DNA from: a virus
IMG/VR virus record: IMGVR_UViG_3300034152_000126
Coordinates: 1-28,585 of that record
DNA: 28,585 bases
Direction: 5' to 3' (one strand)
Part shown: positions 1 through 23,472 of the stretch, in pieces
Position numbering within the stretch: the first letter of the stretch is position 1
How the letters are laid out: each line of letters begins with the position of its first letter
The notes under the pieces: model-generated
Told to the model about the DNA's origin: nothing
Databases searched by the model: none
Seen by the model: the letters and a program-made list of their open reading frames with translations, nothing else
Position numbers and translations under genes: made by a program

Positions 1-119
1 CAGAAGCAGATGCGTTTTTGCGGGCATTTGAGGAGTTTGTTAATGCTAATGGAGGATGGTAGAGGAGGAGAGTAAGATGATCCACACCGGCGCGGGACTT
101 GTTTTCCGAAATGCCCAAC
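1..119 (+). repeat. 119-bp direct repeat, left copy
   Basis: Bases 1-119 are identical to 1689-1807 (offset 1688); identity stops at base 120 (a versus g). The left copy starts at the window edge, so the repeat may extend further. It carries the tail of a small phage-type gene, an AGGAGGAG ribosome-binding site, an ATG at 77, and ends on GCCCAAC, the complement of the integron core box GTTGGGC. In this copy the ATG at 77 runs in frame into the gene that starts at 194; in the right copy the equivalent ATG at 1765 opens only 21 codons, ending at 1830. Confidence 0.97.
3..62 (+). pseudogene. 3' end of a small phage-type gene, cut by the window edge
   Basis: The frame starting at 3 encodes a 19-residue end beginning EADAFLRAFEE and finishing NANGGW before a TAG at 60-62. 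The same residues end the frameshifted gene at 1632-1750, so this is a second copy of at least its last third. I do not recognise the family. Its real start lies outside the window, and whether the upstream part is intact cannot be seen. Confidence 0.5.
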
Positions 120-173
120 AAAGAGGTCAGACTTTGACGCGAAGCGGCAATAGGCTGGACCGTTTGGTTCGAC
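113..173 (-). other. attC-like integron recombination site
   Basis: On the - strand this reads R'' GTCGAAC (one mismatch to RYYYAAC), a short A-rich spacer, an arm GGTCCAG, a central loop, the opposing arm CTGACC, and R' GTTGGGC (perfect GTTRRRY). The R''-side arm carries one extra C, as expected for the extrahelical base of an attC site. The 119-bp repeat ends on this R' box. The paired arms are short, so this is the weakest of the three sites in stem strength. Confidence 0.5.
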
Positions 174-193
174 GCACTCCGCGCAGGATGCCG

Positions 194-370
194 ATGAACT
201 GCTACAAGTGCGGTCGGTTCATCGGATCGGATGGCGACCCCAACGTGTGCGAGGTAGACATTGGAGTGTACGAGGCTGGCTATCCGACGTGTGGCCGGTG
301 CCTGAAACGTGATGCGTCGAACGACCCGGCTCACCGGACTCCGGGGGCTGGATCAACCGAGGAGGATTGA
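194..370 (+). CDS. Small Cys-rich protein, possible zinc-binding
   Basis: Unrecognised 58-residue protein. It begins MNCYKCGRF and carries a second pair in TCGRCLKR, so it has two CxxC motifs about 30 residues apart with one further Cys between them; this fits a small zinc ribbon. The ATG at 194 is chosen because AGG at 185-187 is well placed; ATG 188 is possible, and the frame is open back to an ATG at 77 with a strong ribosome-binding site inside the repeat. It is followed by a GGAGG site and the next gene three bases later. Base composition is balanced, unlike the genome to the right of 2076. Function unknown. Confidence 0.6.
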   Translation: MNCYKCGRFIGSDGDPNVCEVDIGVYEAGYPTCGRCLKRDASNDPAHRTPGAGSTEED

Positions 371-372
371 CT

Positions 373-648
373 ATGACAGAGACCAATGCACAACCGAAAC
401 GCGCCCCCGGAGGTACGTGTGAAGCCGATTGTTCGCCTTCCCCGGCCCCAGGGCAGGTGTGGGACGGAAGTCACGGTGCTCGATTCATCATTAACACGGT
501 AGACTCGAACGGCGTGGTCTCGGGATACTATGTCAACGACGCACCGACCAACTTTTTCCCCGCCGAATACTTCAAGACGCACTACACGATTGATCCGTAC
601 TACAGACGCAAGCCGAACCCGCGGAGGTCAGCAGCAAATGAGCGATAG
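373..648 (+). CDS. Hypothetical phage-type protein
   Basis: A 91-residue protein starting at ATG 373, seven bases after GGAGG (361-365). After a Pro/Cys-rich first 30 residues it contains GQVWDGSHGARF, then a stretch like that of short phage proteins in which a GQVW segment precedes a small beta-rich core. No enzyme motif, signal peptide or membrane segment is visible. Its last 11 bases overlap the start of the next gene at 638, suggesting coupling. Family membership is a guess from resemblance only. Confidence 0.6.
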   Translation: MTETNAQPKRAPGGTCEADCSPSPAPGQVWDGSHGARFIINTVDSNGVVSGYYVNDAPTNFFPAEYFKTHYTIDPYYRRKPNPRRSAANER

Positions 649-1321
649 CGAATGCAGTCTGCTGGACCGTCTTGTTGTGCTTTTCGTCGAACCGGACAGC
701 ATCTACAAGCGCATGGGCCTGGACTGCTATGACCAGGCCAGGGACGCACGTACTTACCAGGGATTCGATCCGGTGATAGCACACCCGCCGTGTCAACGAT
801 GGGGGGCAATGGCCGCAGTCAACTTCGCACGGTGGGGCGGCGAACATAACAGACCCGGCAACGATGGAGGGTTGTTCCGGTTCGCGCTAGACACGGTGAA
901 CCGTTGCGGAGGTGTACTGGAACATCCGGCCAAGACTCGAGCATGGGCCGCGCATGGATTGACCAAGCCAGCGGGAATCGGGTGGCAACCTTGTGGTCAG
1001 GGCTGGACGTGTGAAGTTTGGCAAAGCGCATACGGGCACCGCGCCAACAAGGCCACATGGCTGTATCTCGTCGGTGATCCGCTACCGTTGCGGTGGGAAC
1101 GACCGACCGGGACGCATCAGGTCGGATTCCACGATCAGCGGGGAAAAGCGCGAAACAAGCCGACGCTGGGCCGCAAAGAAGCGCGAGCCACGCCTCCGGA
1201 TTTCGCCGCTGCGCTGGTAAACTTGGCGCGCGGATGTAGCAAGCACAACGCCCCGGATGAGCGGCGCAGTCCGCTCGATCCGATGGTTGGGCAATCTGAA
1301 ACGAAAGGAGACAAGCAATGA
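638..1321 (+). CDS. Phage DNA-methyltransferase-like protein (AHPPC family)
   Basis: This 227-residue protein contains VIAHPPCQRWG at about residues 46-56. That motif resembles the PPC catalytic segment of cytosine-C5 methyltransferases and occurs in a family of short phage proteins often labelled methylase-like. Later stretches GGVLEHPA, YGHRANKATWLYLVG and PPDFAAALVNLA fit that family. It lacks the glycine-rich SAM-binding segment expected at the N-terminus of a full methyltransferase, so activity is doubtful. The start at 638 has GGAGG at 621-625; an in-frame start at 530 is less likely. The last 25 or so codons run through the attC-like stem-loop at 1243-1292, so the C-terminus may be a recombination by-product. 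It overlaps the next gene by ATGA. Confidence 0.6.
   Translation: MSDSECSLLDRLVVLFVEPDSIYKRMGLDCYDQARDARTYQGFDPVIAHPPCQRWGAMAAVNFARWGGEHNRPGNDGGLFRFALDTVNRCGGVLEHPAKTRAWAAHGLTKPAGIGWQPCGQGWTCEVWQSAYGHRANKATWLYLVGDPLPLRWERPTGTHQVGFHDQRGKARNKPTLGRKEARATPPDFAAALVNLARGCSKHNAPDERRSPLDPMVGQSETKGDKQ
1243..1292 (-). other. attC-like integron recombination site
   Basis: On the - strand this reads R'' GCCCAAC (perfect RYYYAAC), arm CGGATCGAGCGG, a short loop, arm CCGCTCATCCG, then R' GTTGTGC (one mismatch to GTTRRRY). The arms pair over 11 bases with one unpaired C on the R''-side arm, the expected position of an attC extrahelical base. Read on the + strand, the rightmost box GTTGGGC is perfect and the left box GCACAAC has one mismatch. 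The site lies inside the 3' end of the gene above. Confidence 0.6.
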
Positions 1322-1611
1322 AGTACAGAAAAAAGCCAGTAGTAATTGAAGCCGTTCAATGGACTGGCGACAACCTAAAAGAAGTGATTGACTTCACGGG
1401 CCTTCATTCGTCCGCAGAGAAATGGACGTGGGAAGAATATGAAGCAGTTGTGGAGAAAGACGGTCTCAAGATATTCACGCTTGAGGGCCCGTTGAAGGCA
1501 TCGGTTCTCGACTGGATCATCAAGGGGGTGAAGGGCGAGTTTTACCCATGCAGATCCGACATTTTCGAGGCCACATATGAGCCTGTGGAAGACATTGCCA
1601 ACGAAACATAA
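1318..1611 (+). CDS. Phage 'MKYRKKP' family protein
   Basis: A 97-residue protein opening MKYRKKPVVIEAVQW. This N-terminus, and the ending with IIKGVKGEFYPC and DIFEATYEPV, are typical of a widespread small phage and prophage protein family of unknown function. AAAGGAG lies about nine bases upstream of the ATG, which overlaps the previous stop as ATGA. The length is normal for the family. It lies between two attC-like sites and ends before a frameshifted small gene. Composition is balanced and A-richer than the structural genes. Confidence 0.85.
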   Translation: MKYRKKPVVIEAVQWTGDNLKEVIDFTGLHSSAEKWTWEEYEAVVEKDGLKIFTLEGPLKASVLDWIIKGVKGEFYPCRSDIFEATYEPVEDIANET

Positions 1612-1631
1612 ACCACTAGGGGAAAAAGAAT

Positions 1632-1750
1632 ATGATTAGCACAATCAAAGAGCTGCAAGACTTTCGGATGATTATATCGTGCCTGGGCCAGAAGCAGATG
1701 CGTTTTTGCGGGCATTTGAGGAGTTTGTTAATGCTAATGGAGGATGGTAG
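1632..1750 (+). pseudogene. Small phage-type gene broken by a frameshift
   Basis: ATG 1632 encodes MISTIKELQDF in one frame; the continuation DDYIVPGPEADAF and onward to NGGW, ending with TAG at 1748-1750, lies in the frame one base earlier. A one-base loss near 1667-1669 would explain this, for example a CTG GAT reduced to CG GAT. Read straight through, the first frame gives an unconvincing 43-residue product ending at 1763. The second half lies within the 119-bp repeat. It could be a true pseudogene, a sequencing error or a recoding site; the family is not recognised. Confidence 0.5.
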
Positions 1751-1807
1751 AGGAGGAGAGTAAGATGATCCACACCGGCGCGGGACTTGTTTTCCGAAAT
1801 GCCCAAC
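1689..1807 (+). repeat. 119-bp direct repeat, right copy
   Basis: Identical to 1-119. The identity ends exactly on GCCCAAC (1801-1807), which on the - strand is the GTTGGGC box of the attC-like site at 1801-1857. Downstream of the box the two copies are unrelated. This is the pattern expected when the same cassette end sits next to two different attC sites. The small frame 1765-1830 starts here with a strong ribosome-binding site but stops inside the stem-loop. Confidence 0.97.
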
Positions 1808-1857
1808 GCCAAGCATCAGGCGCGCTGTAAAGCGTCGCCTGAATGCTCTTGTTAGTC
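1801..1857 (-). other. attC-like integron recombination site (best of three)
   Basis: On the - strand: R'' GACTAAC (one mismatch), arm AGCATTCAGGCGACGCT, loop TTAC, arm AGCGCGCCTGATGCT, and R' GTTGGGC (perfect). The arms pair along their whole length apart from two unpaired bases, both on the R''-side arm, as expected for extrahelical bases that guide integrase strand choice. Length is 57 bp, normal for attC. On the + strand a gene with SD and ATG starts a few bases beyond 1857, so gene direction argues for the opposite orientation; the stem features argue for the - strand. Confidence 0.72.
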
Positions 1858-1869
1858 ATGGAGGTCACG

Positions 1870-2079
1870 ATGGACAAAAAACGATGTAGAACATGCGGCG
1901 GCGAAGGTGCGCTAAAACGTGGATGGACGAACAGCCTGTATTGCTCCGAGTCGTGCGAACGATCACACGTTAGCGCAGTGCATGCGAGCATGCCTGGCGG
2001 AAGACTGCCGCGCCCGAACTGGGTGCCGCATCACATCGGGTTGGAAATACAGCGCAGATGGAAGGGGGTGAGATCGTGA
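1870..2079 (+). CDS. Small zinc-ribbon-like protein
   Basis: A 69-residue protein starting at ATG 1870 (an ATG at 1858 is out of frame; GGAGGT at 1859-1864 is the ribosome-binding site). The N-terminus holds two Cys pairs, RCRTCGGEG and YCSESCERS, about 18 residues apart, a compact zinc ribbon. The C-terminal half ends EIQRRWKG. I recall similar small phage proteins with a Cys-rich head and an HI..EI.RRW tail, but not a named function. The last codons mark the switch to purine-rich DNA. It overlaps the next start as GTGA. Confidence 0.6.
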   Translation: MDKKRCRTCGGEGALKRGWTNSLYCSESCERSHVSAVHASMPGGRLPRPNWVPHHIGLEIQRRWKGVRS

Positions 2080-2279
2080 AGGTGAAGGTGTTGAACATCG
2101 GCAGCTTCGAGGTGATCTTCAACGCCGATGCAGTTACCGAGGATGTGTGGACAGCCGTTCAGGAAGCAGCCGCAGGGTGTGAAGGGGTGTTGAGGGTGAC
2201 GGGGACGCAGGGGCAGGTTCGGGATGCCCTTCCGGAAGAGATCGAGGTGTTGCAGAGGAATGGGGTGATCCCGGGATGA
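2076..2279 (+). CDS. Hypothetical protein
   Basis: A 67-residue acidic protein starting with GTG 2076, which overlaps the previous stop; GGGGG at 2064-2068 supplies the ribosome-binding site. An in-frame ATG at 2058 is the alternative. It is mostly hydrophilic, with segments KVKVLNIGSFEVIF and EVLQRNGVIPG, and shows no recognisable domain. It is the first gene with the strong G-rich coding-strand bias that characterises the rest of the window. Confidence 0.5.
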   Translation: MKVKVLNIGSFEVIFNADAVTEDVWTAVQEAAAGCEGVLRVTGTQGQVRDALPEEIEVLQRNGVIPG

Positions 2280-2334
2280 GATCGATGGAAGACATCCTTT
2301 GAGGTGAGACGAAAGGGGGAGATCGGAGAAGGGC

Positions 2335-2649
2335 GTGGACGAACTCGACAGGCTGTTCAGGGAAGGAACGCCGAAGTGCTTTGAGAGGGTTCGGTTGACC
2401 CCGGCTGATCTCCTGATGGAAGTGTTGAGCCCCCGCCAGTGTGTGGGGGTTCTCCTTTTCTACGTCCATGGGATGGGATACCACCATATCGCCAAGACCT
2501 TCGGGGTTGAGGTGAGTTCGGTGAGGCAGTTGCTGAAGAGGGCGAGAAGGAAGTTGAGGGGAAGGGATGATGTGGTGCGGAAGTTGGTGGATGAGATGAG
2601 GTGTACCTACAGGTACAAGTCGGAAGTGCTTGATTTACCTACCGAGTGA
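2335..2649 (+). CDS. Sigma-70 region 4-like DNA-binding protein
   Basis: A 104-residue protein starting with GTG 2335 after GGAGAAGG. Residues about 32-75 read LSPRQCVGVLLFY, then GMGYHHIAKTFGV, then SSVRQLLKRARRKL. This is the layout of a sigma-factor region 4 helix-turn-helix, where the first helix opens with LSPRQ and the recognition helix is followed by a basic RARRKL. There is no region 2, so it is not a complete sigma factor. Phages carry such proteins as transcription regulators or DNA-binding adaptors. It lies upstream of the ParB-like gene and is preceded by the recurring CGAAAGGGGG leader element. Confidence 0.65.
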   Translation: MDELDRLFREGTPKCFERVRLTPADLLMEVLSPRQCVGVLLFYVHGMGYHHIAKTFGVEVSSVRQLLKRARRKLRGRDDVVRKLVDEMRCTYRYKSEVLDLPTE

Positions 2650-2715
2650 GAAGTTCCCCCGGATGAGATGACCCCCAAAAACACTATTAGGGTGAGAGGA
2701 CGAAAGGGGGTACAC

Positions 2716-3408
2716 GTGGAAGAGACCGCCGCCAAGATCATCGAGATCAAGGTGGAAGACTGCAAGTTGAAACCCATCGAAGAGTTCAAGAGGTTCCAGG
2801 GTGAGTTGAAGACAATCACACGGCCGGACATGGAGTTGCTGAAGGAGAGCATCAGGAAGTCGGGGTTCACAGCCCCGATTTTGCTTTGGAGTGGGAAGGA
2901 CTTCATCCTCGATGGTCACCAGAGGTTGAAGGCAGTGATGGAGTTGAGGGCTGAGGGGTGGGTGGTGAGGGATGGGGTGTTGCCTTACGTGGAGATAATG
3001 GCAGACACGGAGAAGGAAGCACGAGAGATGGTGTTGGCCTTCAACAGCCAATATGGCAGGGTGACATCGAAGGGATTGAGGGACTTCATCGGAGAGGATT
3101 TTGAGGAAGAGATCGGTGACCTCAAGGGGTTCCTGAAGATACCTCACATCGACCTCGAGGCCATGGAGAGGGAGATCAGGGATCAGGGATCGGATGATCC
3201 GGAGATCGAGTTCGCAGAAGAGTTGAGTGAGGAACATCAATACGTGGTGCTGTACTTCCGGAATGAGATGGACTGGCTGCACGCCTTGACGGTGTTGGGC
3301 TTAAAGTCGGTGAAGCCCCTTCATGCGAAGCCGGGGTTCCAGAGCCGAAGTGTCGGGAGAGTGATCGATGGGGTGACCGCCATGTCCAAGATCAGGGAGA
3401 ACCGATGA
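2716..3408 (+). CDS. ParB-like nuclease-domain protein
   Basis: A 230-residue protein. Residues about 10-95 form a ParB/Srx-like N-terminal domain: a KPIEEF strand early on, then PILLW, and FILDGHQRLKAV with the DGHQR box at 66-70, the hallmark nucleotide-binding motif. The remainder has a helical part and a C-terminal region with YVVLYF and VGRVIDGVTAM seen in phage ParB-like proteins. GTG 2716 is chosen because AAAGGGGG precedes it at normal spacing; ATG 2668 in frame has a weak site. The gene overlaps the glycosyltransferase-like gene by ATGA. In phages such proteins often neighbour DNA-modifying enzymes; a CTP-switch or nuclease role is unproven. Confidence 0.8.
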   Translation: MEETAAKIIEIKVEDCKLKPIEEFKRFQGELKTITRPDMELLKESIRKSGFTAPILLWSGKDFILDGHQRLKAVMELRAEGWVVRDGVLPYVEIMADTEKEAREMVLAFNSQYGRVTSKGLRDFIGEDFEEEIGDLKGFLKIPHIDLEAMEREIRDQGSDDPEIEFAEELSEEHQYVVLYFRNEMDWLHALTVLGLKSVKPLHAKPGFQSRSVGRVIDGVTAMSKIRENR

Positions 3409-4181
3409 GGATCAGCCTGTGCGCCCCAAGTTGGAAGAGATCGGGCATGTGTGAGACCCATCACTATCTCCCCTTCGTGAAGTACTATGTTGACCCCTCC
3501 CAATTCGAGGCCTACCGAGAGAAGTTGCCCCCGGAGATCACCGTGATCAAGTGTGATGAGGGAGTACAGGGAAACCTTTGCAGAGTGCGGAATTGGATCA
3601 TGCTGCAGGAGTTCGGGAGTGGGGTGGATGTGGTGGTGTTGGTGGATGATGATCTCAAGGGGATGTACAGGTGGGAGAAGTGTGTGAGGAAGAGGATCGA
3701 CCCCGGTGACTTCCTGTGGTGGGTTGAGAGGACATCGATGTTGGCGAAGGATTGGGGAGCATGGTTTTGGGGGGTCAACGTCAATCAGGATAAACAGGTG
3801 TATCGGGAAGCAACACCCTTCTCGACCCTGTCCTACATCGGTGGGCCATTCCAGGTGTTCCTGAAGGGGAATGATTGCTGGTACGATGAGAGACTTCCGT
3901 TGAAGGAAGACTATGACATGACCCTCCAACACCTGAACAAGCACCGGATTGCCCTGAGGTTGAACGGGGTGTTCTACGTCAGCCGGCAGGTGGAACAGGC
4001 CGGGGGATGTGCAGACTTCCGGAATCGGGAGAGGGAGATCGAGCAGTTCAATCTTCTCCAACGGAAGTGGGGCCCAGACATCGTGAAGAGGGATCGGAAC
4101 CCAAGATCGCATTCATCGAGGAAGGCCAAGAGCCACGATGACATCAACCCACTGATCAAGGTTCCGATCAAGGGAGTGTGA
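3405..4181 (+). CDS. Glycosyltransferase-like protein, possibly TET-associated (TAGT-like)
   Basis: A 258-residue protein with GT-A-type features. After a beta-strand opening (MRISLCAPSWKR) there is GVQGNLCRVRNWI, then VVVLVDDDLKGMYRW with a DDD at 81-83, the usual metal/sugar-nucleotide site, and later YIGGPFQVFLKG and PLKEDYDMTLQHL. This arrangement resembles the TAGT family, glycosyltransferases linked in phages to TET/JBP-type oxygenases that build sugar-modified bases. No oxygenase or complete base methyltransferase lies in the window, so the substrate is unknown. It is coupled to the ParB-like gene upstream and the tiny membrane protein downstream. A non-DNA glycosyl acceptor is possible. 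Confidence 0.65.
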   Translation: MRISLCAPSWKRSGMCETHHYLPFVKYYVDPSQFEAYREKLPPEITVIKCDEGVQGNLCRVRNWIMLQEFGSGVDVVVLVDDDLKGMYRWEKCVRKRIDPGDFLWWVERTSMLAKDWGAWFWGVNVNQDKQVYREATPFSTLSYIGGPFQVFLKGNDCWYDERLPLKEDYDMTLQHLNKHRIALRLNGVFYVSRQVEQAGGCADFRNREREIEQFNLLQRKWGPDIVKRDRNPRSHSSRKAKSHDDINPLIKVPIKGV

Positions 4182-4391: not shown

Positions 4392-4814
4392 ATGGGAAGA
4401 AGAGTGAAGCTGGATGATGAGTTGCAGAAGAACGCTGTTGACCTGATCTCAATCGGTGTTCCTGAATCCGCGGTGTGTGATGCTGTAGGTATATCAGAAC
4501 AAACGTTTTACAGATGGATGCGTTATGGGGAACAGGGGAAATCACCAGCGTATCGATCATTCTTTGAGGCTATAAAAAAGGGGAGAGCCCGGGCAATCTC
4601 CATGAGGGTGTCGAGAATTTACAAGGCAGGGAAGGAACAGTGGACAGCGAATGCGTGGTGGTTGGAGAGGGTTCGACCTGATCTCTTCGGAAGGATGGAC
4701 AGGCTGGATGCTCAGGTGAGGGGATCGATGAATATCAAGGTGGTGTTCGGGAAGTCGGGCTCGAAGAAGGGACGGCCCCGGAGAGGGGCAGGGAAGCCCT
4801 CAGGGAAGAGTTGA
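4392..4814 (+). CDS. terS: Terminase small subunit (putative)
   Basis: A 140-residue basic protein directly upstream of the large terminase. Residues about 10-45 form a helix-turn-helix: DLISIGVPESAVCDAVGIS then EQTFYRWMRYGEQGKS, followed by a long helix EAIKKGRARA. This HTH plus RW..GE..K..Y..F..A...A layout is typical of phage small terminase subunits, which bind the packaging site on phage DNA and regulate the large subunit. The C-terminus is rich in Gly, Lys and Arg (KKGRPRRGAGK). GAGGTGA lies about six bases before the ATG. Confidence 0.7.
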   Translation: MGRRVKLDDELQKNAVDLISIGVPESAVCDAVGISEQTFYRWMRYGEQGKSPAYRSFFEAIKKGRARAISMRVSRIYKAGKEQWTANAWWLERVRPDLFGRMDRLDAQVRGSMNIKVVFGKSGSKKGRPRRGAGKPSGKS

Positions 4815-5005
4815 TTCCAGTTGAGGGGGAGTACGGGGGGACAGGTGAGATCGTGGCTGTGAGACGGCAGGGGAAGACAGAGTTACAAGGGGTTGAGGGA
4901 TCGATCTTGAGCAGACGCTATCCTGATGGCGACTCACAGGTTCACATAACTGCCCATAATAGGTATTATGTAAACTTGCAAAGGCATTATGATCAAACAA
5001 CTTAG
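4811..5005 (+). CDS. Doubtful small ORF between terminase genes
   Basis: A 64-codon frame from TTG 4811, overlapping the small-terminase stop. The first half has phage-like codon use, but the second half (after about 4930) is AT-richer and contains an inverted repeat at 4955-4970. No domain is visible. It may be noncoding sequence, perhaps packaging-site DNA, that happens to be open. Confidence 0.25.
   Translation: MIPVEGEYGGTGEIVAVRRQGKTELQGVEGSILSRRYPDGDSQVHITAHNRYYVNLQRHYDQTT
4955..4970. repeat. Perfect inverted repeat CATAATA-GG-TATTATG
   Basis: Seven-base arms flank GG within an AT-rich island in an otherwise G-rich genome, between the terminase genes. This could be an operator or part of a packaging signal; the sequence does not decide. 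Confidence 0.5.
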
Positions 5006-5150
5006 GAGTGACGTGTGGATAACCGGAGAGGTGTGATGATCAGGATCGGAGGGGGATGGTGACTTGGATCAGCCTCGAAGGATCGGGTGGTGACAGGGGT
5101 TCGACTTCCACCTGGATCGGTGACCGAAGGGAAGGCTGAGGGGAAGATCG
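5006..5150. other. GATC-dense noncoding stretch before terL
   Basis: No convincing gene is seen here. GATC occurs at 5038, 5044, 5067, 5081, 5115 and 5146 and continues into the first codons of terL at 5170, 5188 and 5193: nine in 159 bases, against under one expected by chance in even composition. Its location between small and large terminase genes makes a packaging-recognition region conceivable. Confidence 0.5.
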
Positions 5151-6500
5151 ATGGGGAAGAAGTTGAGAGGATCGAAGAGGGGAAGAGGATCGGATCGGGG
5201 GGGGAGTGGTTCGGCTGGGAATATGGGGGAACGGGTGGTGGCGATCGGCTATGATCCATATCCGTTACAGCGTTTGTTTCATGACGGGGTTGACTCACAC
5301 CTCCTGAGTGCGTTCATCGGGGGGATCGGATCGGGGAAGACAACGAGTGGTTGTGCACAGGCCTTGAAGTTCGCATTGGAGCATGAAGAGAGTGTAGGGT
5401 TGATTGCAGCGCCGACCTACCCGATGTTGAGGGATTCGACCCAATATGAGTTCTTCCGAATGTGTCCTCCGGAGTTGATCATGGATTGGAACAAGACGGA
5501 GAACAAGGTGACGTTGGTGAATGATGCTGTGATCCTGTTCAGGTCAACGGAACATCCTGATCGGTTGAGGAACTTGAACTTGTGGTGGTGGTGGATCGAT
5601 GAGGGTGGGTTGGTTGCGAAGATGGGGTTTTTGATTTTGCTTGGAAGGTTGAGGATGGGTGGGAGTTCGAGAAGGGGATGGGTTACGGGTACTCCGAAGG
5701 GGTTGGGTTGGCTGTTCCATGAGTTCGGGAAGGACAACAAGCCGAACCGGTTCATGGTGAATGCCTCATCGAGAGATAACCCTTACCTGCCTGATGATTA
5801 CGTGGACATTCTGGAAGAGACATACGCGGGGGTGTTCAGGGATCAGGAGATTGATGGGAAGTTCGTGCAGTTCGAGGGATTGATCTACGGGATGTTGGAG
5901 CAGTGGGAAGAGAGGTACATTCAGGAGATCGGGAGAGGTGTGTTCGTGGACTTCTTCGGGGGGATTGATTGGGGATGGACGAACCCCGCGGCTTTTGGAG
6001 TTGTGGGGGTGACGCAGGATGGAAGGTGTGCTCATGTGTTCGAGGAAGAGTACCGGAGTCACATGAGCTTGGACGATATCGTGGATCGGGTTCGGGTGAT
6101 GTCGAGGGAGTGGGGGGTTACGAAGTGGTGGTGTGGGCATGAAGAGCCGGGGAACATCGAGAGGTTGGTGAATGAGGGGATCGCGGCGGAGAGGGCGGAT
6201 ACCTCGATCAAGGGTGGGATTAGTGATGTGACGCACATGATCCAGACCGAGATCGAGGATGAGGGAGTGCTGAGGGCAGTGGTTGAAGGGGGAAGGATGG
6301 TCCCGGGGTTGACGTGGAGTCCAGCGTGTCCGCACAGCTTTGCGGATTGCAAGACCTACACCTGGGAGTTGGGGAAGGATGGGGAGAGTACGGGGAAGCC
6401 GGCGAAGGGGCAGAGAGATCATGGTGCGGATTGGATTCGGTATGTGGTGAGAGGGATCAAGTCGCAGGTACATTCAAGACCGAGGGTGGTTGTGCTATGA
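5151..6500 (+). CDS. terL: Terminase large subunit (ATPase-nuclease)
   Basis: A 449-residue packaging motor. Walker A is GGIGSGKTT at residues 57-65; Walker B is WWWWIDE with D150-E151; a GTPKGLGW coupling segment follows. The nuclease domain opens with GGIDWGWTNPAAFG, with the likely metal-binding Asp at 273, and ends near DHGADWIRY. The protein pumps DNA into the prohead and cuts it. The first 24 residues are a low-complexity basic stretch, so ATG 5223 is an alternative start; ATG 5151 has GAGGGGA at good spacing. The four tandem Trp before Walker B are unusual. It overlaps the portal gene by ATGA. Confidence 0.96.
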   Translation: MGKKLRGSKRGRGSDRGGSGSAGNMGERVVAIGYDPYPLQRLFHDGVDSHLLSAFIGGIGSGKTTSGCAQALKFALEHEESVGLIAAPTYPMLRDSTQYEFFRMCPPELIMDWNKTENKVTLVNDAVILFRSTEHPDRLRNLNLWWWWIDEGGLVAKMGFLILLGRLRMGGSSRRGWVTGTPKGLGWLFHEFGKDNKPNRFMVNASSRDNPYLPDDYVDILEETYAGVFRDQEIDGKFVQFEGLIYGMLEQWEERYIQEIGRGVFVDFFGGIDWGWTNPAAFGVVGVTQDGRCAHVFEEEYRSHMSLDDIVDRVRVMSREWGVTKWWCGHEEPGNIERLVNEGIAAERADTSIKGGISDVTHMIQTEIEDEGVLRAVVEGGRMVPGLTWSPACPHSFADCKTYTWELGKDGESTGKPAKGQRDHGADWIRYVVRGIKSQVHSRPRVVVL

Positions 6501-8731
6501 GAATCTATTGGGGACAGCGTGAATTGCTGAGGCTTCCGGATAACAGTGTTCGGGGATGGTTAGGCGAACACCTGCTATCGGTGTTGGGAGCGCGGAAGGT
6601 TCAGTTGGGGGCGTTCTCAGAGATGGAGTTCGACAGTGGTGCCGATCCGATCTTGGATGTGGACGATCTCCACCGGAGATACTTCAGCGAGGTGCAGTGG
6701 GTTTACGCTTGCACCCATGTGATCTCTCAATTCGGATCGAGCATTCCGTTCAGGGTGTATGAGATACCGAAGGGGAAGAGGTTCGATCAGAAGGTTCCGC
6801 TCCCTGAGGATCACCCGGCATGTGTGTTGATGAGAGAGGTGAACCCGGCGCACACGTGGTTCGACCTGTGGGAGAATACATTCGGTGGGTTGGAGTTGAA
6901 TGGCAATGCGTATTGGTTGGTGGTTGAGGGTGAGGGGGGGTTGCCTGTCCAGTTGTGGGTGTTGGATCCAACGAAGATGAAGGTGGTTCCGGGCAGGTCG
7001 CAGTTCATCCAGGGTTACCTGTACCAGCCGGGATCGGGATCGAAGAAGTATGCTCTGCGTCCGGATCAGGTGATCCATTTCAAGACCTTCAATCCGTACG
7101 ATCCGCTTTATGGGCAGAGTACCGTCCGGGCAGCCATGAGAGCAGTGAATGCAGATGTCGGCGCGGCGAAGTACAACGAGGCGTTTATTGCGAATCAGGC
7201 AAGACCCGGGGGGTTCCTCGTGTCGAAGCACACGATGAATGATGATCAGTTGAGACTGTTGAGGAAGGAGTGGGAGAAGGCGCATCGAGGGGTGACGAAC
7301 GCAGGTAAAACAGCCCTGATGTTCGGGGAGATCGACTGGAAGGATATGGGGCTGTCGCAGAAGGACATGGAGTTCCTTGCCCTGAGGAAGATGAATCGGG
7401 AAGAGATACTTGCGGTTTTCAACGTTCCCCCGGTGATGGTGTCCCTGCTTGAGCATGTGAACTATGCCACGGCTGAGACACAGAGAAGGCAGTTCGCCGT
7501 GTACACGATGATGCCGAAGTTGAAGAAGGTGGAAGCGGTGGCGAATCAATTCCTCTTCCGGAGGTTCGGAGAGAACATCGTGGGCCAGTTCGATGTGACC
7601 GAGGTTGAGGCATTCAGGGAGAACGAGAAGGACAAGGCGGCGGTGACAGTACAGTTGGCATCGAAGGGGATTCTCACGATCAACGAGATCAGGCAGAAGT
7701 ATTACGGGGAAGAGAAGGTTGCGTGGGGTGACACCTGGATGGTCCCGATGTCGATGATCACAGCCGAGAGTGCAATGGGTGGTGGAAGCCCTGTCCCGAA
7801 GAAGGATGGAGAGGGTGGAGAGAAGACGAGGGTGGAGTACACGGTGAAGCAGGTGCGCCGGCTGAGGATGTATCACAGGCGGTTGGATGTTACGGAGAGA
7901 AGGGTTCGGGGGTTGCTGTTCGAGATGTTGGAAGAGCAGAAGAAGGGGATGATCAAGAGGTTGAAGGCGCGGGGTGATGGTGGAGAGGTGAGGGGTGTGG
8001 ATGACTTCATCGATCCGAGTGAGATGGAAGAGTTGGCAAGGGAAGCCTCACGTGCGAGCCTCGTGGTTGCAGTGAAGGAAGGGATCAAGCATGGGAAGGA
8101 ATCGGTGCCGATAGACATCCAGTTCGGGATCGACAATCCGAAGGTTCAGAACTTCATGCAGACTCAATCGATGCAGATGGTGACTAACCTGAACGGGACA
8201 ACCTTGAAGATGGTGGATGAGGCCACTTTCAAGGCGTTGCAGGAAGCCACGTCCGCAGGGTTGAGTGAAGGTGCGAAACTAAGGGAGATCGAGAAGGCCA
8301 TTGATCAAGTGTTCCTTCATCGAAGACACAACGTGAAGACGATTGCCCGGACAGAGGTGGTTCAGGCAGTTCAACACACGCAGATGGATGTGTGGGAAGA
8401 GAGTGGTGTGGTGGAGATGAAGGAGTGGTTGGCATCGATGGATGATGACACGAGACAGGAACATGGTGAGTTGCATGAGAGGCAGGTTCCGTTGAGTGAT
8501 CCCTTCCCGATCCTTCACATAATGTACCCCGGAGATCAGAGTGGAGACCCGGGGGATACGATAAACTGTCGGTGTGACATGATTGCGGTTGTGTCACAGA
8601 AGGCCATTCTGGAACGGGTGACAACGAAGTGGGAGAGGGAGTTCTACCCGTCCGGTGGGAAGGGGACAGAATCATGGCAGAGAAAACAGGAAGCCCTCAA
8701 GGCACTCGAACGAATGACGATGGAGCAGTGA
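6497..8731 (+). CDS. Portal protein fused to a MuF-like minor head domain
   Basis: A 744-residue protein, about 300 residues longer than a typical HK97-type portal. Residues 1-420 are portal-like: WVYACTHVISQFGSSIPFRVYE, GNAYWLV, QVIHFKTFNPYDPLYGQS, then NVPPVMV and YATAETQRRQF. A Gly/Lys-rich linker near 426-445 leads to helices and a MuF-like domain with TIARTEVVQAVQ at about 614 and an ending PGDQSGDPGDTINCRC near 690. The portal forms the dodecameric DNA gate; MuF-type proteins are minor head components injected or held inside the capsid. ATG 6497 overlaps the terL stop; the open frame upstream to 6314 is antiphase with terL. Confidence 0.92.
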   Translation: MRIYWGQRELLRLPDNSVRGWLGEHLLSVLGARKVQLGAFSEMEFDSGADPILDVDDLHRRYFSEVQWVYACTHVISQFGSSIPFRVYEIPKGKRFDQKVPLPEDHPACVLMREVNPAHTWFDLWENTFGGLELNGNAYWLVVEGEGGLPVQLWVLDPTKMKVVPGRSQFIQGYLYQPGSGSKKYALRPDQVIHFKTFNPYDPLYGQSTVRAAMRAVNADVGAAKYNEAFIANQARPGGFLVSKHTMNDDQLRLLRKEWEKAHRGVTNAGKTALMFGEIDWKDMGLSQKDMEFLALRKMNREEILAVFNVPPVMVSLLEHVNYATAETQRRQFAVYTMMPKLKKVEAVANQFLFRRFGENIVGQFDVTEVEAFRENEKDKAAVTVQLASKGILTINEIRQKYYGEEKVAWGDTWMVPMSMITAESAMGGGSPVPKKDGEGGEKTRVEYTVKQVRRLRMYHRRLDVTERRVRGLLFEMLEEQKKGMIKRLKARGDGGEVRGVDDFIDPSEMEELAREASRASLVVAVKEGIKHGKESVPIDIQFGIDNPKVQNFMQTQSMQMVTNLNGTTLKMVDEATFKALQEATSAGLSEGAKLREIEKAIDQVFLHRRHNVKTIARTEVVQAVQHTQMDVWEESGVVEMKEWLASMDDDTRQEHGELHERQVPLSDPFPILHIMYPGDQSGDPGDTINCRCDMIAVVSQKAILERVTTKWEREFYPSGGKGTESWQRKQEALKALERMTMEQ

Positions 8732-9960
8732 AGGATCGGGTCCTGAAGTTCATGGCGTGTCGAGAAGCGGAAGGGAAGTATAAGCCCGACCTCGAGAATT
8801 ACAGGTTGTGGTTCAAGGCGAGTACCAATGCGTTGTGTGATGACGGGATCATGATCGAACCCACCGCATGGAAGAAACACATGCCGACGTACATGGAGAA
8901 CCCGGTGTTCCTCGATGCTCACAATTACAGTTCGGTGTTCAAGAGCCTCGGACATGCCGTGGATTGGGAGATCGTGGAAGATGGGTTGATGGTGCAGTAC
9001 GAGTTTGCGGTTGGAAGGAACCCGTGGGCGATCTTCGCATGGGATATGTACATGGCGAAAGACCTCTCCGCGGTGAGTGTTGGGTGGAAAACCTTGAAGT
9101 ATGAGAGGGTTGAGCCCGAGGAAGAGAAGAAGGGGTTCCTGAGAGTGCTTGAGGCAAGGTTGCTTGAGACATCGGCTGTTCCGGTACCGATGGACAGTGG
9201 TGCATTGGTGGAGAGGATGATGGAGTTCAGCCTGAGCGATCCGCAGGGAGTGTTGGTTCGGGCAATGAGAGAGTTCGTTTACCTGGAAGAGGCCTCGATG
9301 CGGCCGGGGTGGGAAGACACCAACGAGGATGATGCGAAGAAGGGGCAGATCAGGTATCAGATCAAGCCACCGGAAGCGTTCAACGAGAAGACCTTTGTGA
9401 TCCTGACCTTCGATGTGAAGGGGAAGAAGGATGTGCAGATCGTGAGGGGGAAGTACCCGGGGAAGAAGGACGATGGGAAGCTTCACGCACAGTCGATCCA
9501 TTTCAACAAGAAGGATGGTTGGGGGATGGCTGGTGCGAAGAAGTGGTGGAACGATCACAAAGAGGAACTTGCGAAGGGGTTGAAGATCGAGGGCACCGAT
9601 GTGAGGTTCCCGATTGAGGGGCTTGATGAAGTGTTGGGGATCGAGAGGGAGTTGGGGTTGGACTGGACGGAGAAGACCGCAGGTGCAGCCCCTGAGGAAC
9701 AGGAAGATCGGTTGGGGAAGGTGATCTCAGCGAAGAACATGAAGATCGTGGATGCAGCGATCAACGCTTGCAGGGTTACAGTTCGGGCCTTGAATGCGTT
9801 GAAGTCGGCAGGATCTACGTCCGAGGGTGAGAAGGGTGATGAGGATGGGGAGTGGGGTGAGGTGGATGAGCAGTTGAGGGACTTGGTTGCTCTCACAGAG
9901 GGCTTGAGTGATAGAGAGTTGGATGAGGGGATCAGGGAGTTGATACCGAGAGAGGATTAG
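8674..9960 (+). CDS. Prohead maturation protease with extra C-terminal domains
   Basis: A 428-residue protein. The N-terminal 185 residues fit the S78-type prohead protease: DAHNYSSV with the candidate catalytic His, SLGHAVDWEI, DLSAVSVGW with the candidate Ser, and the closing LLETSAVPVPMDSGAL. Such proteases are about 200 residues; here a second domain follows at about 222-300 (IRYQIKPPEAF, IVRGKYPGKK, WGMAGAKKWWNDHKEEL), then an acidic helical tail that may act as scaffold. It cleaves capsid and internal proteins during head maturation. ATG 8674, with AAGGGGA upstream, is preferred to 8629; the start overlaps the portal gene. Confidence 0.85.
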   Translation: MAEKTGSPQGTRTNDDGAVKDRVLKFMACREAEGKYKPDLENYRLWFKASTNALCDDGIMIEPTAWKKHMPTYMENPVFLDAHNYSSVFKSLGHAVDWEIVEDGLMVQYEFAVGRNPWAIFAWDMYMAKDLSAVSVGWKTLKYERVEPEEEKKGFLRVLEARLLETSAVPVPMDSGALVERMMEFSLSDPQGVLVRAMREFVYLEEASMRPGWEDTNEDDAKKGQIRYQIKPPEAFNEKTFVILTFDVKGKKDVQIVRGKYPGKKDDGKLHAQSIHFNKKDGWGMAGAKKWWNDHKEELAKGLKIEGTDVRFPIEGLDEVLGIERELGLDWTEKTAGAAPEEQEDRLGKVISAKNMKIVDAAINACRVTVRALNALKSAGSTSEGEKGDEDGEWGEVDEQLRDLVALTEGLSDRELDEGIRELIPRED

Positions 9961-9963
9961 GCT

Positions 9964-9984
9964 GAACCCCGGAGTGTGGGGTTC
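9964..9984 (+). terminator. GAACCCC/GGGGTTC stem-loop between protease and capsid genes
   Basis: Seven perfect base pairs around the 7-base loop GGAGTGT, starting four bases after the protease stop and ending about six bases before the AAGGAGGAG site of the capsid gene. No T-run follows. It may stabilise or process the abundant capsid mRNA rather than terminate. Confidence 0.45.
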
Positions 9985-10002
9985 GAGAAGGAGGAGAAGA
10001 TC

Positions 10003-11490
10003 ATGGCTGATACACGCGAGATGCTTGATGATGTCAAGCGTGAGCAGAAGGAGATGAAACAGGCTGTGGTCGCCTTGAAGGACATGGCGAAGGAGAGCAA
10101 GGGTGATCTCTCGAAGGTGAGGGAGAAGGTGGATGCTGTCCAGGCTGATCTCGCCAAGTTCAGGGTGAACTCGCAGTTGCCCCCGGCAATGCTGAGGGTG
10201 GATGACGAAGAGTGGAACGATGTGGATTCCATTCTGGATGATCAGTTCGATCCGGTGAAGAGGTGCATGAGTTCCACGCGGTGGATGAAGAGGATGGAGA
10301 AGGGCACGGAGCGTCCCGAGGATGAGTTGATGGAGATGTACCAGAAGGCGCATACCGCCCTCCTCATCTGCGGGATGATCGCAAGATCGAAGGACAAGGG
10401 AGCCTTCACGGGATGGAACAAGGAGTGGTTGGACAAGGCAACACCCCGGACATCGAAGAGGTATTGGCATTTTGTCGAGCAGGTGAGAAGGCACATCCTG
10501 AGAGCCGATGAGGTGATGGACGCGGGTGGGGATGTGTCGAGTTGGGTTCCCACGCAGTACGCGGGAAGGATGTATGAGAAGGTGAGGATTGCCCTCAAGG
10601 TCGCCAACCTGTTCGAGGCAATCACGATGCCGACTCCGACGTACACCCTGCCGCTTGAGGGAACCGACCTTGTGGCATACCTGGGTGGTGAGCTGGCCGA
10701 TGATCCGGGGGATGGATCACAGAGCTGGACGATCTCGAAGTCCACGGTGGCGAACAAGTCCCTCACCGCCAAGAAGAGTGTGTGTCGGACGGTGGTCGCA
10801 GATGAGGCAACCGAGGACACGATCATCCCCGTGATCCCGTATGTGGAGAGGTTGCAGACACTCGCCCATGCTGTCGCCCTTGAGAATGTCCTGATCAACG
10901 GACAGGCCACGACTGCGATGGATTTGGAGATCGGTGGTGGTGCGATCGCAGCGAATGATTACCGGAAGGCTATGGATGGGTTGAGGTATATCGCCAAAGA
11001 GGTGAAGACCGCAGCCACGCTCGACATGGGAACCTTCTCGGAGACAACGCTTCGATCCCTGCTCGCCCTGATGGGCATCTACGCGGGGGACATCGGCAAG
11101 TTGGTGTTCGTCACATCTCTCGCAGGGTTCTTCAAGTTCCTCGAGCTTGCCAACATATGGACGTTGGATAAGTACGGTCCGAACGCGGTGATCCTGAAGG
11201 GAGAGCTTGGGAAGTGGATGAACATCCCCATCGTGGTAAGCGAGTACTTCCCTGCCAATCTCAACGCATCGGGTGTCTACGATGATGTGACAACCACGAA
11301 GACCGGGCTCCTGTGCGCCAGGAAGGATTGCTTCGTGAGAGGGATCAGACACGGGTTCGAGTTGAAGATTCTGCAGGAAGTCTATGCGGCCAGTGGTGGG
11401 ATCGGGATCGTGAGTTACCAGAGGAATGCGTTCATCGATCTCTGGGGTGCTGGTGACAACGATGTGGTGTACGGGTACAACATAGGGTGA
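10003..11490 (+). CDS. Major capsid protein, HK97 fold
   Basis: A 495-residue protein. Residues 1-60 form a charged coiled coil (EMLDDVKREQKEMKQAVVALKD), like the delta domain removed by the maturation protease, or one half of a scaffold. The core from about 175 onward has HK97-like segments: SSWVPTQYAGRMYEKVR, ANLFEAITMPTPTYTLPLEG, then LTAKKSVCRTVVADEATED, ALENVLINGQ and a C-terminal GFELKILQEVYAASGGIGI followed by RNAFIDLW. It follows the protease, as expected. AAGGAGGAG precedes ATG 10003. It forms the icosahedral shell. Confidence 0.93.
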   Translation: MADTREMLDDVKREQKEMKQAVVALKDMAKESKGDLSKVREKVDAVQADLAKFRVNSQLPPAMLRVDDEEWNDVDSILDDQFDPVKRCMSSTRWMKRMEKGTERPEDELMEMYQKAHTALLICGMIARSKDKGAFTGWNKEWLDKATPRTSKRYWHFVEQVRRHILRADEVMDAGGDVSSWVPTQYAGRMYEKVRIALKVANLFEAITMPTPTYTLPLEGTDLVAYLGGELADDPGDGSQSWTISKSTVANKSLTAKKSVCRTVVADEATEDTIIPVIPYVERLQTLAHAVALENVLINGQATTAMDLEIGGGAIAANDYRKAMDGLRYIAKEVKTAATLDMGTFSETTLRSLLALMGIYAGDIGKLVFVTSLAGFFKFLELANIWTLDKYGPNAVILKGELGKWMNIPIVVSEYFPANLNASGVYDDVTTTKTGLLCARKDCFVRGIRHGFELKILQEVYAASGGIGIVSYQRNAFIDLWGAGDNDVVYGYNIG

Positions 11491-11519
11491 TCCTGTGCAG
11501 CCCCGGCCTCAGGAAGGGG

Positions 11520-11542
11520 GGGGAGAGCCGTCCACTCTCCCC
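11520..11542 (+). terminator. GGGGAGAG/CTCTCCCC stem-loop after the capsid gene
   Basis: Eight perfect pairs around loop CCGTCCA, 30 bases after the capsid stop, without a T-run. The arm sequence recurs in stem-loops at 25790 and 27185. A role as partial terminator or mRNA 3' end of the capsid message is plausible. Confidence 0.5.
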
Positions 11543-11609
11543 TCCACCTGGGGGGATCGGGATGGGAGAAGGGAGTGGAGAGAAGAGGCATTAGCAAAGG
11601 GGGTTCGAG

Positions 11610-11870
11610 ATGCCGAAGGACGGAGAGAAGAAGAAGAAGGGGTTCATGAAGTTCGAGCTGTTGAAGGGGAAGAAGGGTCACCTTGGGTTGACGAGCTACA
11701 ACGATGGGGTGTTCATGTTCCTTCCTGATCAGGTGAAGGAGATCGGTGTGGAGATCACCCCGGAGAAGGCGAAGGAGTTGAAGGCAGCGTACCCGAAGCA
11801 GTTCAAGTACGTCGACTCCAAGGGGAAGAAGGCAGAGGGAGAGGATGAAGAAGATCAGGGTGGGGGGTGA
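11610..11870 (+). CDS. Small charged head-region protein, unknown
   Basis: An 86-residue protein very rich in Lys and Glu: KDGEKKKKGFMKFELLKGKK at the N-terminus, DQVKEIGVEITPEKAKEL in the middle and an acidic Gly-ended tail. CAAAGGGGG precedes the ATG. It lies between the capsid and head-tail connector genes, a slot often held by capsid decoration or head-completion proteins, but no fold is recognisable. Confidence 0.65.
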   Translation: MPKDGEKKKKGFMKFELLKGKKGHLGLTSYNDGVFMFLPDQVKEIGVEITPEKAKELKAAYPKQFKYVDSKGKKAEGEDEEDQGGG

Positions 11871-11871
11871 T

Positions 11872-11943
11872 GTGATAAGATCAGAAGACATGCCTCAGTT
11901 TGATCGCATGATGCGCAGACCGCCGATGAAGAGGGTGAGATGA
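11872..11943 (+). CDS. Possible 23-residue ORF
   Basis: GTG 11872 opens 23 codons with an Arg/Met-rich product (FDRMMRRPPMKRVR) filling the gap between its neighbours. There is no independent support beyond position and a nearby G-rich site; it may be leader sequence. Confidence 0.2.
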   Translation: MIRSEDMPQFDRMMRRPPMKRVR

Positions 11944-11944
11944 C

Positions 11945-12553
11945 ATGGCCGTAACCCTGCACGCTTATGCATTCGTGACAGAGGATGAGGTGAAGGAGTG
12001 GATCGGGGGGAAGATCACAGAGGTCGCAGACTATGATGATTGGGTTCGCACCCTGATCAATCGGGTCACCGATTACATGGAGAACAGCCTGTGTTATCGC
12101 CGCATCCTGGTTCGGAGTACCGCCGAGGAAGAGGTGAGGGATGGGGATGGATCACAGGAGATGAGGCTGTGGCATCCTCCGATCAACGACCTGTCCCTGA
12201 TCGAGATCAAGTACGAGTCGGACATAGATGCCACGGCGATTGCTGATGAGGAACAGGTGAGGATGGATGCAGCGATCGCTGAGGTGAGGTTGATGCAACG
12301 CATCTTCACGAGAGGGTATCGGAACATCACGTTCACCTACAAGGGTGGGTTCGCCGCAGGGGAGATCAAGGATCACTGGAAGCAGGCGTGTGTGATGATC
12401 GTGAAGAGGTTGTACAAGATGCAGTCGAGATCGAATGAGACACTTGCATCGATCTCTCGAAGTGGTGAGACGATGAACTTCCTGATTGAGAAGGTGATCG
12501 ATCAGGACATCATGCGGTTGGTGTCGGACTTGATCAGGCCACGGGTGGGTTAA
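11945..12553 (+). CDS. Head-tail connector (adaptor) protein
   Basis: A 202-residue protein. The opening FVTEDEVKEWIG, the helical WVRTLINRVTDYMENSLCYR, a beta stretch MRLWHPPINDLSLIEIKY, then YRNITFTYKGGFA and HWKQACVMIVKRLYKM are the sequence order of HK97 gp6-like adaptors, which dock under the portal as a ring. Length and position just after the capsid gene match. GAGGGTGA lies upstream of the ATG. It is separated by one base from the next gene. Confidence 0.78.
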   Translation: MAVTLHAYAFVTEDEVKEWIGGKITEVADYDDWVRTLINRVTDYMENSLCYRRILVRSTAEEEVRDGDGSQEMRLWHPPINDLSLIEIKYESDIDATAIADEEQVRMDAAIAEVRLMQRIFTRGYRNITFTYKGGFAAGEIKDHWKQACVMIVKRLYKMQSRSNETLASISRSGETMNFLIEKVIDQDIMRLVSDLIRPRVG

Positions 12554-12554
12554 C

Positions 12555-13067
12555 ATGATCGATGTGACGTGGGAAGGCCTCCCGGAGTTACAGGGGAAGA
12601 TGAAGAAGGCCAGACAGTTCATCGACCCGGGGAAGATCATGCTCCGGGAGTGCATCATGTTCACCGGACACGTGAAGAAGGAACATTTCGGAAGGGTGAG
12701 CAAGGGTACAGCCCCGGTTCCGGGGAAGCTCACGATGAGAAGTGGAAGTGCGGGGTTGGGTGGATCGATCAAACATGAGGTGTTGCACAAGGGTGGATCG
12801 GTGGATGGAGTGGTTGGTGTGCCGAAACAGAGTACCGCAGCGAAGTACGCGGAGATGCATGAGAGGCCAGCGAGCACGATGATACTTCCGAAGAAGGCGA
12901 AGGTGTTGAGGATAACACTGTGGAGTGGTGAGGTGATATTCCGACCCTTCGCCATCGTGCCCGGGAGACCGTATTTCGCTCCGAGCAAAAGGGAGTTCGG
13001 CCCGATCATGACGAAGGATTGGAACAATCAAGTCCACCTGGGGCTGAGGAAGGCAGGGTTGCTGTGA
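12555..13067 (+). CDS. HK97 gp10-like neck/tail-completion protein
   Basis: A 170-residue protein. It has an N-terminal helix region ELQGKMKKARQFIDPGKIMLRE, a HVKKEHF segment, then TMRSGSAGLGGSI, a beta stretch with KYAEMHERPAS, and PGRPYFAPSKREF near the C-terminus. This order (helix, L..S, Y....E.G, RP...P) is typical of the gp10-like family that joins head and tail. Its stop overlaps the next GTG start (GTGA). Confidence 0.75.
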   Translation: MIDVTWEGLPELQGKMKKARQFIDPGKIMLRECIMFTGHVKKEHFGRVSKGTAPVPGKLTMRSGSAGLGGSIKHEVLHKGGSVDGVVGVPKQSTAAKYAEMHERPASTMILPKKAKVLRITLWSGEVIFRPFAIVPGRPYFAPSKREFGPIMTKDWNNQVHLGLRKAGLL

Positions 13068-14140
13068 AGCTGTTCCCGGTACACGATGATTACCTGAGAG
13101 CAGCCAGTGGGGTGAGTTGGTTGAACGTGGTGACGAGGGTGGATTTTGATCTCGCAGAGAGTGGTGAAGAGGATTATGGGGATACCGACAACCTCCAATG
13201 GGGGAAGGGATATTGGATCGATCCGAAGTGGGGATCACCGAATTGGATGTGGTCGCAGTGTTTCATGAGGTTCGACATGACGAACATGGTGAGGTTCGCA
13301 GATGACAGGCTCACCACGGTGAAGTTGAGGATGAGGATATGGGATGATCAGTCAACCCCTCAAATATACCAGATGGGGATTCTCGCCACGCCGTTCACGA
13401 TCCCGCTGGATGGATCACAGTGGGTGGACAGCACAAGTGAGTTCACAGCGTGGCAGCAATCGAGGTTCAGGGCAGACATGTATTCGGATGATGTCGGGGG
13501 CTATTGGGAGTTGGAGTTCGATGAGTCAATGAAAGCAGCGATCCCGAGGACAGGGACTTTCGATATAAACCTGATGGTGAAGGCATCACATCCACCTCCG
13601 AACATGAGGTGGTTGATGGGCTATTCGGGTGATTACGGAACGGTATCGCTCCGTCCATACTTGAAGGTGGTGATTGACGATATGAGAGAGCAGATCATCG
13701 AGGCGTTGGTGACGAGGTTGAATGAGATCGATGAGACAGCAGGTTACAACCTGACTGTGAAGTCGGTGATCCGGAGACCGACACCGATTGATCAGTTGGA
13801 TGAGCCTGAGTTCCCCTTGATCGTGGTGTACGGGGCAGAAGAGGATCGGGAGAGACAGGCATCGTACACGGACGAAGCCCTGTGGAGAGTTCGGGTGGCA
13901 TTGTGTGTGTTCGCTGATCCCGATGATCAGACGACAGAACTCAATCGATTTATTGCCGACATCGAGAGGGCGGTTGATGAAGACAATCAAACAGGACTCC
14001 CTCCGTTGGAGTTGGATGGATTGCTCGAGTGTTGGGTGAAGAGGGTGGAGTGGAGCATCGAGGGAGTGTTGGACTCGAATCGGGCAATGGCGTTCGTGGA
14101 CATAGCGTGTGCGTATCATCACATCACGCTCACGACATGA
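13064..14140 (+). CDS. Tail terminator fused to an N-terminal adhesion-like beta domain
   Basis: A 358-residue protein starting with GTG 13064. The C-terminal 152 residues, from M207 (MREQIIEALVTRLNEID), look like a tail terminator: VIRRPTPIDQL, PLIVVYGAEEDRER, ALWRVRVALCVFADPD, ELNRFIADIERAV. That family caps the tail tube at the head-proximal end. Residues 1-200 are a beta-rich module, with FMRFDMTNM, TTVKLRMRIWDD, WELEFDESMKAAI and SLRPYLKVVID, recalling secreted DNRLRE/carbohydrate-binding-like domains. Internal ATG 13682 could give a free terminator, though only weak SD sequence precedes it. The fusion is unusual. Confidence 0.75.
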   Translation: MKLFPVHDDYLRAASGVSWLNVVTRVDFDLAESGEEDYGDTDNLQWGKGYWIDPKWGSPNWMWSQCFMRFDMTNMVRFADDRLTTVKLRMRIWDDQSTPQIYQMGILATPFTIPLDGSQWVDSTSEFTAWQQSRFRADMYSDDVGGYWELEFDESMKAAIPRTGTFDINLMVKASHPPPNMRWLMGYSGDYGTVSLRPYLKVVIDDMREQIIEALVTRLNEIDETAGYNLTVKSVIRRPTPIDQLDEPEFPLIVVYGAEEDRERQASYTDEALWRVRVALCVFADPDDQTTELNRFIADIERAVDEDNQTGLPPLELDGLLECWVKRVEWSIEGVLDSNRAMAFVDIACAYHHITLTT

Positions 14141-23471: not shown

Positions 23472-23472
23472 C

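Follow-up and report, generated by a model that had tools for sequence, protein, structure and literature searches.

Does the cluster of hairpins at the left end of a virus contig belong to a genuine integron-type cassette array carried by a phage and, if so, why do its genes point against the attC sites? We address this question in virus record IMGVR_UViG_3300034152_000126, a genome fragment of 28,585 bp, the whole of which is referred to here as the window. A preliminary description, made from the sequence alone, had noted three stem-loops and read them as a cluster of attC sites lacking an integrase, with phage-type genes between them that point the opposite way to the inferred attC direction. 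Clusters of attC sites without an integrase (CALINs) are already known from phages: Qi et al. 2023 (PMC9892861) found 17 of them, and reported that IntI1 recombined attC sites of TJE1, PH101 and P12002L, the bottom strand better than the top; recombination with attI1 in E. coli was shown for the bottom strands of the PH101 sites. Strand choice is described as orienting captured cassettes toward expression from Pc (PMC11023631, PMC8946536). What appears to be new, within the open-access literature that we searched, is an inversion of gene relative to attC as a rule. No report of such a rule was found in that literature, in which preprints and subscription journals were not covered, and in the text of PMC9892861, its figures and supplements aside, we saw inverted polarity mentioned nowhere.

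The window derives from a tailed phage that bears a CALIN. In addition to the terminase, portal and head genes in Table 1, tape measure and tail lysozyme genes are present (PHROG matches). A search of the whole 28.6-kb record with IntI1 gave no relative, with the reservation that the record is a fragment; the definition of a complete integron (intI plus attI) is hence not met, whereas that of a CALIN without a nearby integron integrase is met within the record. An Rfam scan and a tRNA scan of the window were both empty. GC skew is ~0.1 in the left ~2 kb against ~0.33 in the phage backbone, with a change of composition near 2080. Two observations stand apart from this. Across positions 2000-28585, G strongly and steadily outnumbers C on the coding strand, which is not so in the cassette part. 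The window also encodes a TET-associated-type glycosyltransferase (3405-4181) and a member of an anti-restriction protein family (23446-24378), which point to modified phage DNA.

To score attC sites we used a home-made covariance model, R1, made from 27 attC from arrays beside bacterial intI genes and from class 1 integrons, which was run on the window unfiltered with both strands scored. Its E-values are rough because calibration was shortened. The five top matches all lie on the - strand within the first 1.9 kb (6.5%) of the contig, and the top background score elsewhere in the window (~26.7 kb, either strand) is 10.6 bits. For scale, the attC sites of the published phage TJE1 score 33.4 and 27.0 bits. 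The sites at 1243, 1801 and 113 stand above background (36.5, 29.6 and 18.7 bits). Their end boxes (RYYYAAC / GTTRRRY) depart from the consensus by at most one position each, and on the - strand the hairpin is imperfect, its extrahelical bases being in the R''-L'' arm. At 1801-1857, folding of the + strand gives single-base bulges on the R'' arm. The bounds of the site at 612-680 beyond 620-674 were extended by eye and its boxes were read from the sequence. With five sites in 1.9 kb, all on the - strand, the cluster satisfies the definition of a CALIN (two or more attC of one polarity, with neighbours within 4 kb). The window sites are thus real attC that exceed chance by sequence and covariance model, although no recombination has been observed for this phage.

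Table 1 Features of the cassette array and phage backbone in the window (strand. = not assigned).
Positions	Strand	Feature	Evidence and details
1-119	.	Repeat copy 1; end of cassette X, here joined to the cassette starting at 119	100% identical to 1689-1807
77-370	+	ORF from cassette X' through site 113-173; CxxC pairs, zinc-ribbon-like	Sequence
113-173	-	attC site, moderate	R1 18.7 bits, E 0.0067; R' GTTGGGC (113-119); cut 118/119
316-437	-	Possible long attC site, weak	R1 16.1 bits, E 0.031; single long hairpin fold
373-648	+	Cassette gene, unknown; stop ~30 nt beyond R' cut of site 612-680	ORF
612-680	-	attC site	R1 16.4 bits over 620-674; R'' GCACAAC, L'' TCCAGCAGAC, R' GTTCGGC (one mismatch)
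638-1321	+	Cassette gene, phrog_12600	PHROG E 9e-65
1243-1292	-	attC site	R1 36.5 bits, E 1.9e-7; R'' GCCCAAC, L'' TCGAGCGGAC, R' GTTGTGC; cut 1248/1249
1249-1806	.	Inferred cassette X, 558 bp, cut to cut	R' boxes of sites 1243 and 1801
1318-1611	+	Cassette X gene, phrog_419, function unknown	PHROG E 5e-35
1632-1763	+	Short ORF of 43 aa in cassette X	Plausible ribosome-binding site; no family match
1689-1807	.	Repeat copy 2; end of cassette X, here joined to the cassette with gene 1870-2079	100% identical to 1-119
1801-1857	-	attC site	R1 29.6 bits, E 1.1e-5; R'' GACTAAC (1851-1857), R' GTTGGGC (1801-1807); cut 1806/1807
1870-2079	+	Gene of the rightmost cassette; Cys-rich, weak HNH-type match	phrog_1271 E 2e-4
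4392-14140	+	Terminases (small, large), portal, head protease, major head protein, connectors	PHROG matches

Several claims of the preliminary description can be judged from these results. Its three stem-loops (113-173, 1243-1292 and 1801-1857) held at those coordinates, as did its statement that each end box has at most one mismatch and that the R'' arm has unpaired bases on the - strand. Its count of three held only in part: there are about five sites, the one at 612-680 having been missed and that at 316-437 being weak. It had also overlooked the 119-bp exact repeat that ends at an R' box. The covariance-model check it proposed was run with R1 and not with the model of IntegronFinder, and did not refute the sites.

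One alternative is that the resemblance to attC is accidental and the hairpins are terminators or other common intergenic structures. In its favour, the hairpins come after gene ends, and attC sites are themselves thought to be weak terminators (PMC9892861). Against it, the scores are specific to strand, boxes and extrahelical bases, with the remainder of the window reaching no more than 10.6 bits, and both the repeat and the cassettes shared with other contigs (see below) end at attC cut points. We regard this explanation as very unlikely.

The repeat gives direct information on cassette edges. Both copies close in the R' box (GCCCAAC on the + strand), their identity stopping 1 nt past the cut AA^C, and the paths diverge after it, one copy leading into the cassette at 119 and the other into the cassette at 1807. 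The cut is exactly where the two joins of cassette X part, as a cassette duplication or an excised circle in the sample would produce. The repeat starts where the contig starts, so its length says little and may reflect the assembly. That cassettes end at the R' cut (G^TTRRRY) is seen to within 1 nt in the repeat and also in two cassettes shared by other contigs. The arrangement of a typical cassette, with the gene parallel to attC, is not found: the genes lie on the + strand and the attC sites on the - strand.

The cassette genes of the window include phage families. The phrog_12600 gene (638-1321) has 41 relatives in IMG/VR and a weak DNA methyltransferase similarity (phrog_757, E 7e-5); its homology stops near residue 204, at the start of attC 1243-1292, and the ORF continues through the site. 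The ORF at 77-370 has no Pfam or PHROG match, and ATG 194 is a possible start of a cassette gene of its own. GenBank phages searched with the DNA of 1-2100 gave nothing beyond short matches to the phrog_419 gene.

We surveyed gene direction against attC polarity in a viral sample, obtained by scanning IMG/VR with two exact attC-core patterns, which are blind to genes, and by collecting relatives of the window gene at 638-1321. This sample, drawn through a single gene family and two attC cores, falls short of a census. The pattern scans yielded 47 contigs, the majority of which have between 2 and 14 attC sites in an array. To assign direction we relied on codon usage and ribosome-binding sites, alike for phage arrays and for bacterial intI-linked arrays; the bacterial controls were mostly IntI1 relatives. 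In the phage contigs, 137 cassettes were antiparallel, 1 was parallel and 15 were undecided (41 contigs antiparallel, none parallel), whereas the bacterial intI-linked arrays had 33 parallel, 7 antiparallel and 16 undecided cassettes (17 contigs parallel, 2 antiparallel). The seven antiparallel bacterial calls could be errors, their stop offsets being scattered. Two IMG/VR contigs, L252 and L216, were tallied as bacterial, and dropping both from both sets leaves the contrast unchanged. L252 (G046) has the sole full IntI (489 bits) among the 47 attC-bearing viral contigs, and its array is parallel. As for other traces of the integrase, L216 (G011) contains IntI in broken pieces together with near-identical cassettes repeated in tandem at a spacing of 316 bp, with uncertain gene direction, and L263 has an N-terminal IntI-like fragment (G032:18420-18620, 63.7 bits) near a 9-site antiparallel array.

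Evidence independent of codon usage points the same way. Antiparallel ORFs matched the Pfam families N6_N4_Mtase (five), C5 methylase (one) and a helicase, and PHROG families of a further DNA methyltransferase and a Mom-like protein; these matches fix the coding strand for those genes. DNA methyltransferases are often encoded in the sampled phage cassettes. In antiparallel genes the stop codons are concentrated at the R' cut (RYYTAA^C), and in bacterial genes in the R'' box. By GenBank annotation, MW202573 has attC (around 2069-3738) on the - strand and genes on the +, and PH101 (NC_029094, 76529-77987) has attC on the + strand and genes on the -, so both are antiparallel. L206 1-9100, from one of the contigs reached through relatives of the 638-1321 gene, is a prophage fragment adjoining host folD with 12 attC on one strand and genes on the other. 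Its cassette genes have their stop just beyond the R' box, and many of the encoded proteins therefore finish with PNA or PNADS. A phage-type tyrosine integrase was observed beside this array. The exceptions are TJE1, which is parallel, and IMG/VR contig L212, which appears to be. A GenBank phage search with one phage attC returned only a P1 integron record, and the P12002L attC went undetected by R1, probably because the model was made from proteobacterial sites. Inverted polarity is likely a general property of the phage-borne arrays sampled, and we claim it for this sample only.

The remaining claims of the preliminary description fare as follows. An attC cluster without integrase joined to a phage genome is supported by the R1 scores, the IntI search and the phage genes, and phage-type genes do lie between the sites (phrog_12600, phrog_419). 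The opposition of genes to attC direction held, and it extends to the phage contigs sampled (137:1), PH101 and MW202573. Reading of a gene through a site, which had been listed as unexplained, needs no special explanation and was dropped as a problem, given that genes of phage arrays commonly terminate 20-48 nt beyond the cut. Cassette-type variation in phages, named as a possible refutation if absent, was checked in part: among the contigs recovered by the pattern scans, different phage contigs have cassettes in common that are bounded by the cut points.

A further alternative is chimerism: assembly may have fused part of a bacterial integron array to a phage genome. It is favoured by the composition shift near 2080, by a contig that begins inside a repeat and by the lack of backbone relatives: none was confirmed in IMG/VR via the ParB-like and portal proteins. 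IMG/VR moreover includes at least one bacterial integron contig (L252/G046). Because of the composition shift and the missing relatives, the junction of array and phage in the window has no independent backing, and chimerism of this contig cannot be ruled out. However, its array is antiparallel, as in phages and not as in bacteria, its cassette genes belong to phage families (phrog_12600, phrog_419), and the same kind of array occurs in the complete annotated phage MW202573 and the isolate PH101, which makes a chimera unlikely.

Signs of mobility come from other contigs. A whole cassette is common to L226:8531-8926 and L260:10477-10872 (396 nt, 90%), and another to L243:2821-3163 and L257:6036-6376 (343 nt, 96%), in both cases with edges at the R' cuts; each pair consists of otherwise unrelated phage contigs whose neighbouring sequences differ. 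Near-identical 57-nt attC hairpins accompany differing genes in L224, L225, L236, L238, L251 and L259. Several array contigs have terminase, portal or tail genes on the same contig. Of 39 cases, 10 have the array no more than 500 nt from a contig end, where 1.6 would be expected, with array spans hand-compiled from match tables; breaks of the assembly at variable arrays would give such an excess.

These data bear on the possibility of a fossil array, derived from attC, captured once and now inherited without recombination. The absence of an integrase from the phage and the degraded state of sites 113-173 and 316-437 would agree with it. Against it stand the two assembly paths that split at a cut point, the excess of arrays near contig ends, as for variable regions, and the near-identical attC attached to different genes; we consider a fossil improbable. 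Alternatively, a recombinase other than IntI, phage-borne or Xer-like, could move the cassettes, with the reversed polarity reflecting that enzyme. Antiparallel arrays are nearly all without IntI, and a phage-type integrase does lie beside the L206 array, but the boxes, extrahelical bases and cut position fit IntI-type attC, and IntI1 recombines PH101 sites (PMC9892861). Other tyrosine recombinases were not systematically surveyed, and we consider this explanation unlikely as well.

The reading we prefer, and consider likely overall, is an orientation-inverted integron-type cassette array in a tailed phage, swapped by a host integrase. The data show the attC sites, their polarity, the orientation statistics and the phage context, and in a few cases that cassettes end at cut points; which enzyme acts, whether cassettes move today and why the polarity is inverted are matters of inference. 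On this reading a tailed phage without an integrase of its own would carry, at positions 1 to ~2080, a row of integron-type gene cassettes. The recombining (bottom) strand of the window attC would be the + strand, that is, the coding strand of the cassette genes, and a phage cassette would run, in gene direction, as C, attC hairpin, ribosome-binding site, gene and RYYYAA (cut). In bacterial cassettes the site faces the opposite way, with the cut on the hairpin side away from the gene. The phage array may serve as an exchangeable collection of accessory genes, of which many act in DNA modification, expressed by phage transcription. The integron integrase of an infected or lysogenised host probably exchanges the cassettes by attC x attC recombination, this enzyme being inferred, and the inverted polarity would mark a phage cassette pool distinct from the bacterial pool.

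Two reasons for the inversion can be envisaged. A likely one is that, by the inversion, the strand that recombines comes to be the displaced coding strand and the lagging-strand template, which would favour folding and exchange; in bacterial work, a bottom strand on the lagging template is linked to more excision (PMC11023631). This argument assumes that transcription follows replication, and the direction of replication is itself assumed. Equally possible is that genes captured at the attI of a host, being turned against Pc, would remain silent. The data do not separate these options, and any reason for the inversion remains an inference. A bolder reading, which may as easily prove wrong as right, is a worldwide phage pool of reversed-polarity cassettes, swapped by host integrases and read with phage operons instead of from Pc, such that the phage and bacterial pools share one enzyme but are mutually silent.

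The bacterial orientation rule, by which a gene faces the host promoter, is broken almost without exception by the phage arrays sampled. If this is general, host integrons would be a shuffling machine for phage DNA-modification and other anti-defence genes, and the phage cassette pool would be separate, its genes silent in a host array. Polarity offers a simple marker for telling phage-derived from bacterial CALINs, whether in genomes or in metagenomes. It also becomes possible to ask by direct comparison why all bacterial cassettes are oriented alike.

Among the closest known systems, the phage CALINs of Qi et al. (PMC9892861) share with the window attC clusters without an integrase, small ORFs and DNA methyltransferases. 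Their text describes TJE1 and PH101 cassettes as lying in one direction with the typical bacterial structure, whereas we find the PH101 genes antiparallel to attC. Sedentary chromosomal and mobile integrons share with the window the attC boxes, extrahelical bases and cut position, and about one gene per cassette with its stop in the gene-end box; chromosomal integrons likewise have uniform attC, as do the phage contigs with 57-nt hairpins. The phage array differs from both in lacking intI within the record, with attI and Pc presumed absent too, and in having the gene inverted relative to attC, and insertion at attI would therefore set the gene against Pc. The inverted V. cholerae integron (PMC11023631) has in common with the window that the recombining strand lies on the other replication template. 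There, however, the whole array was flipped in the laboratory, whereas in the phage the relation of gene to attC is reversed within each cassette.
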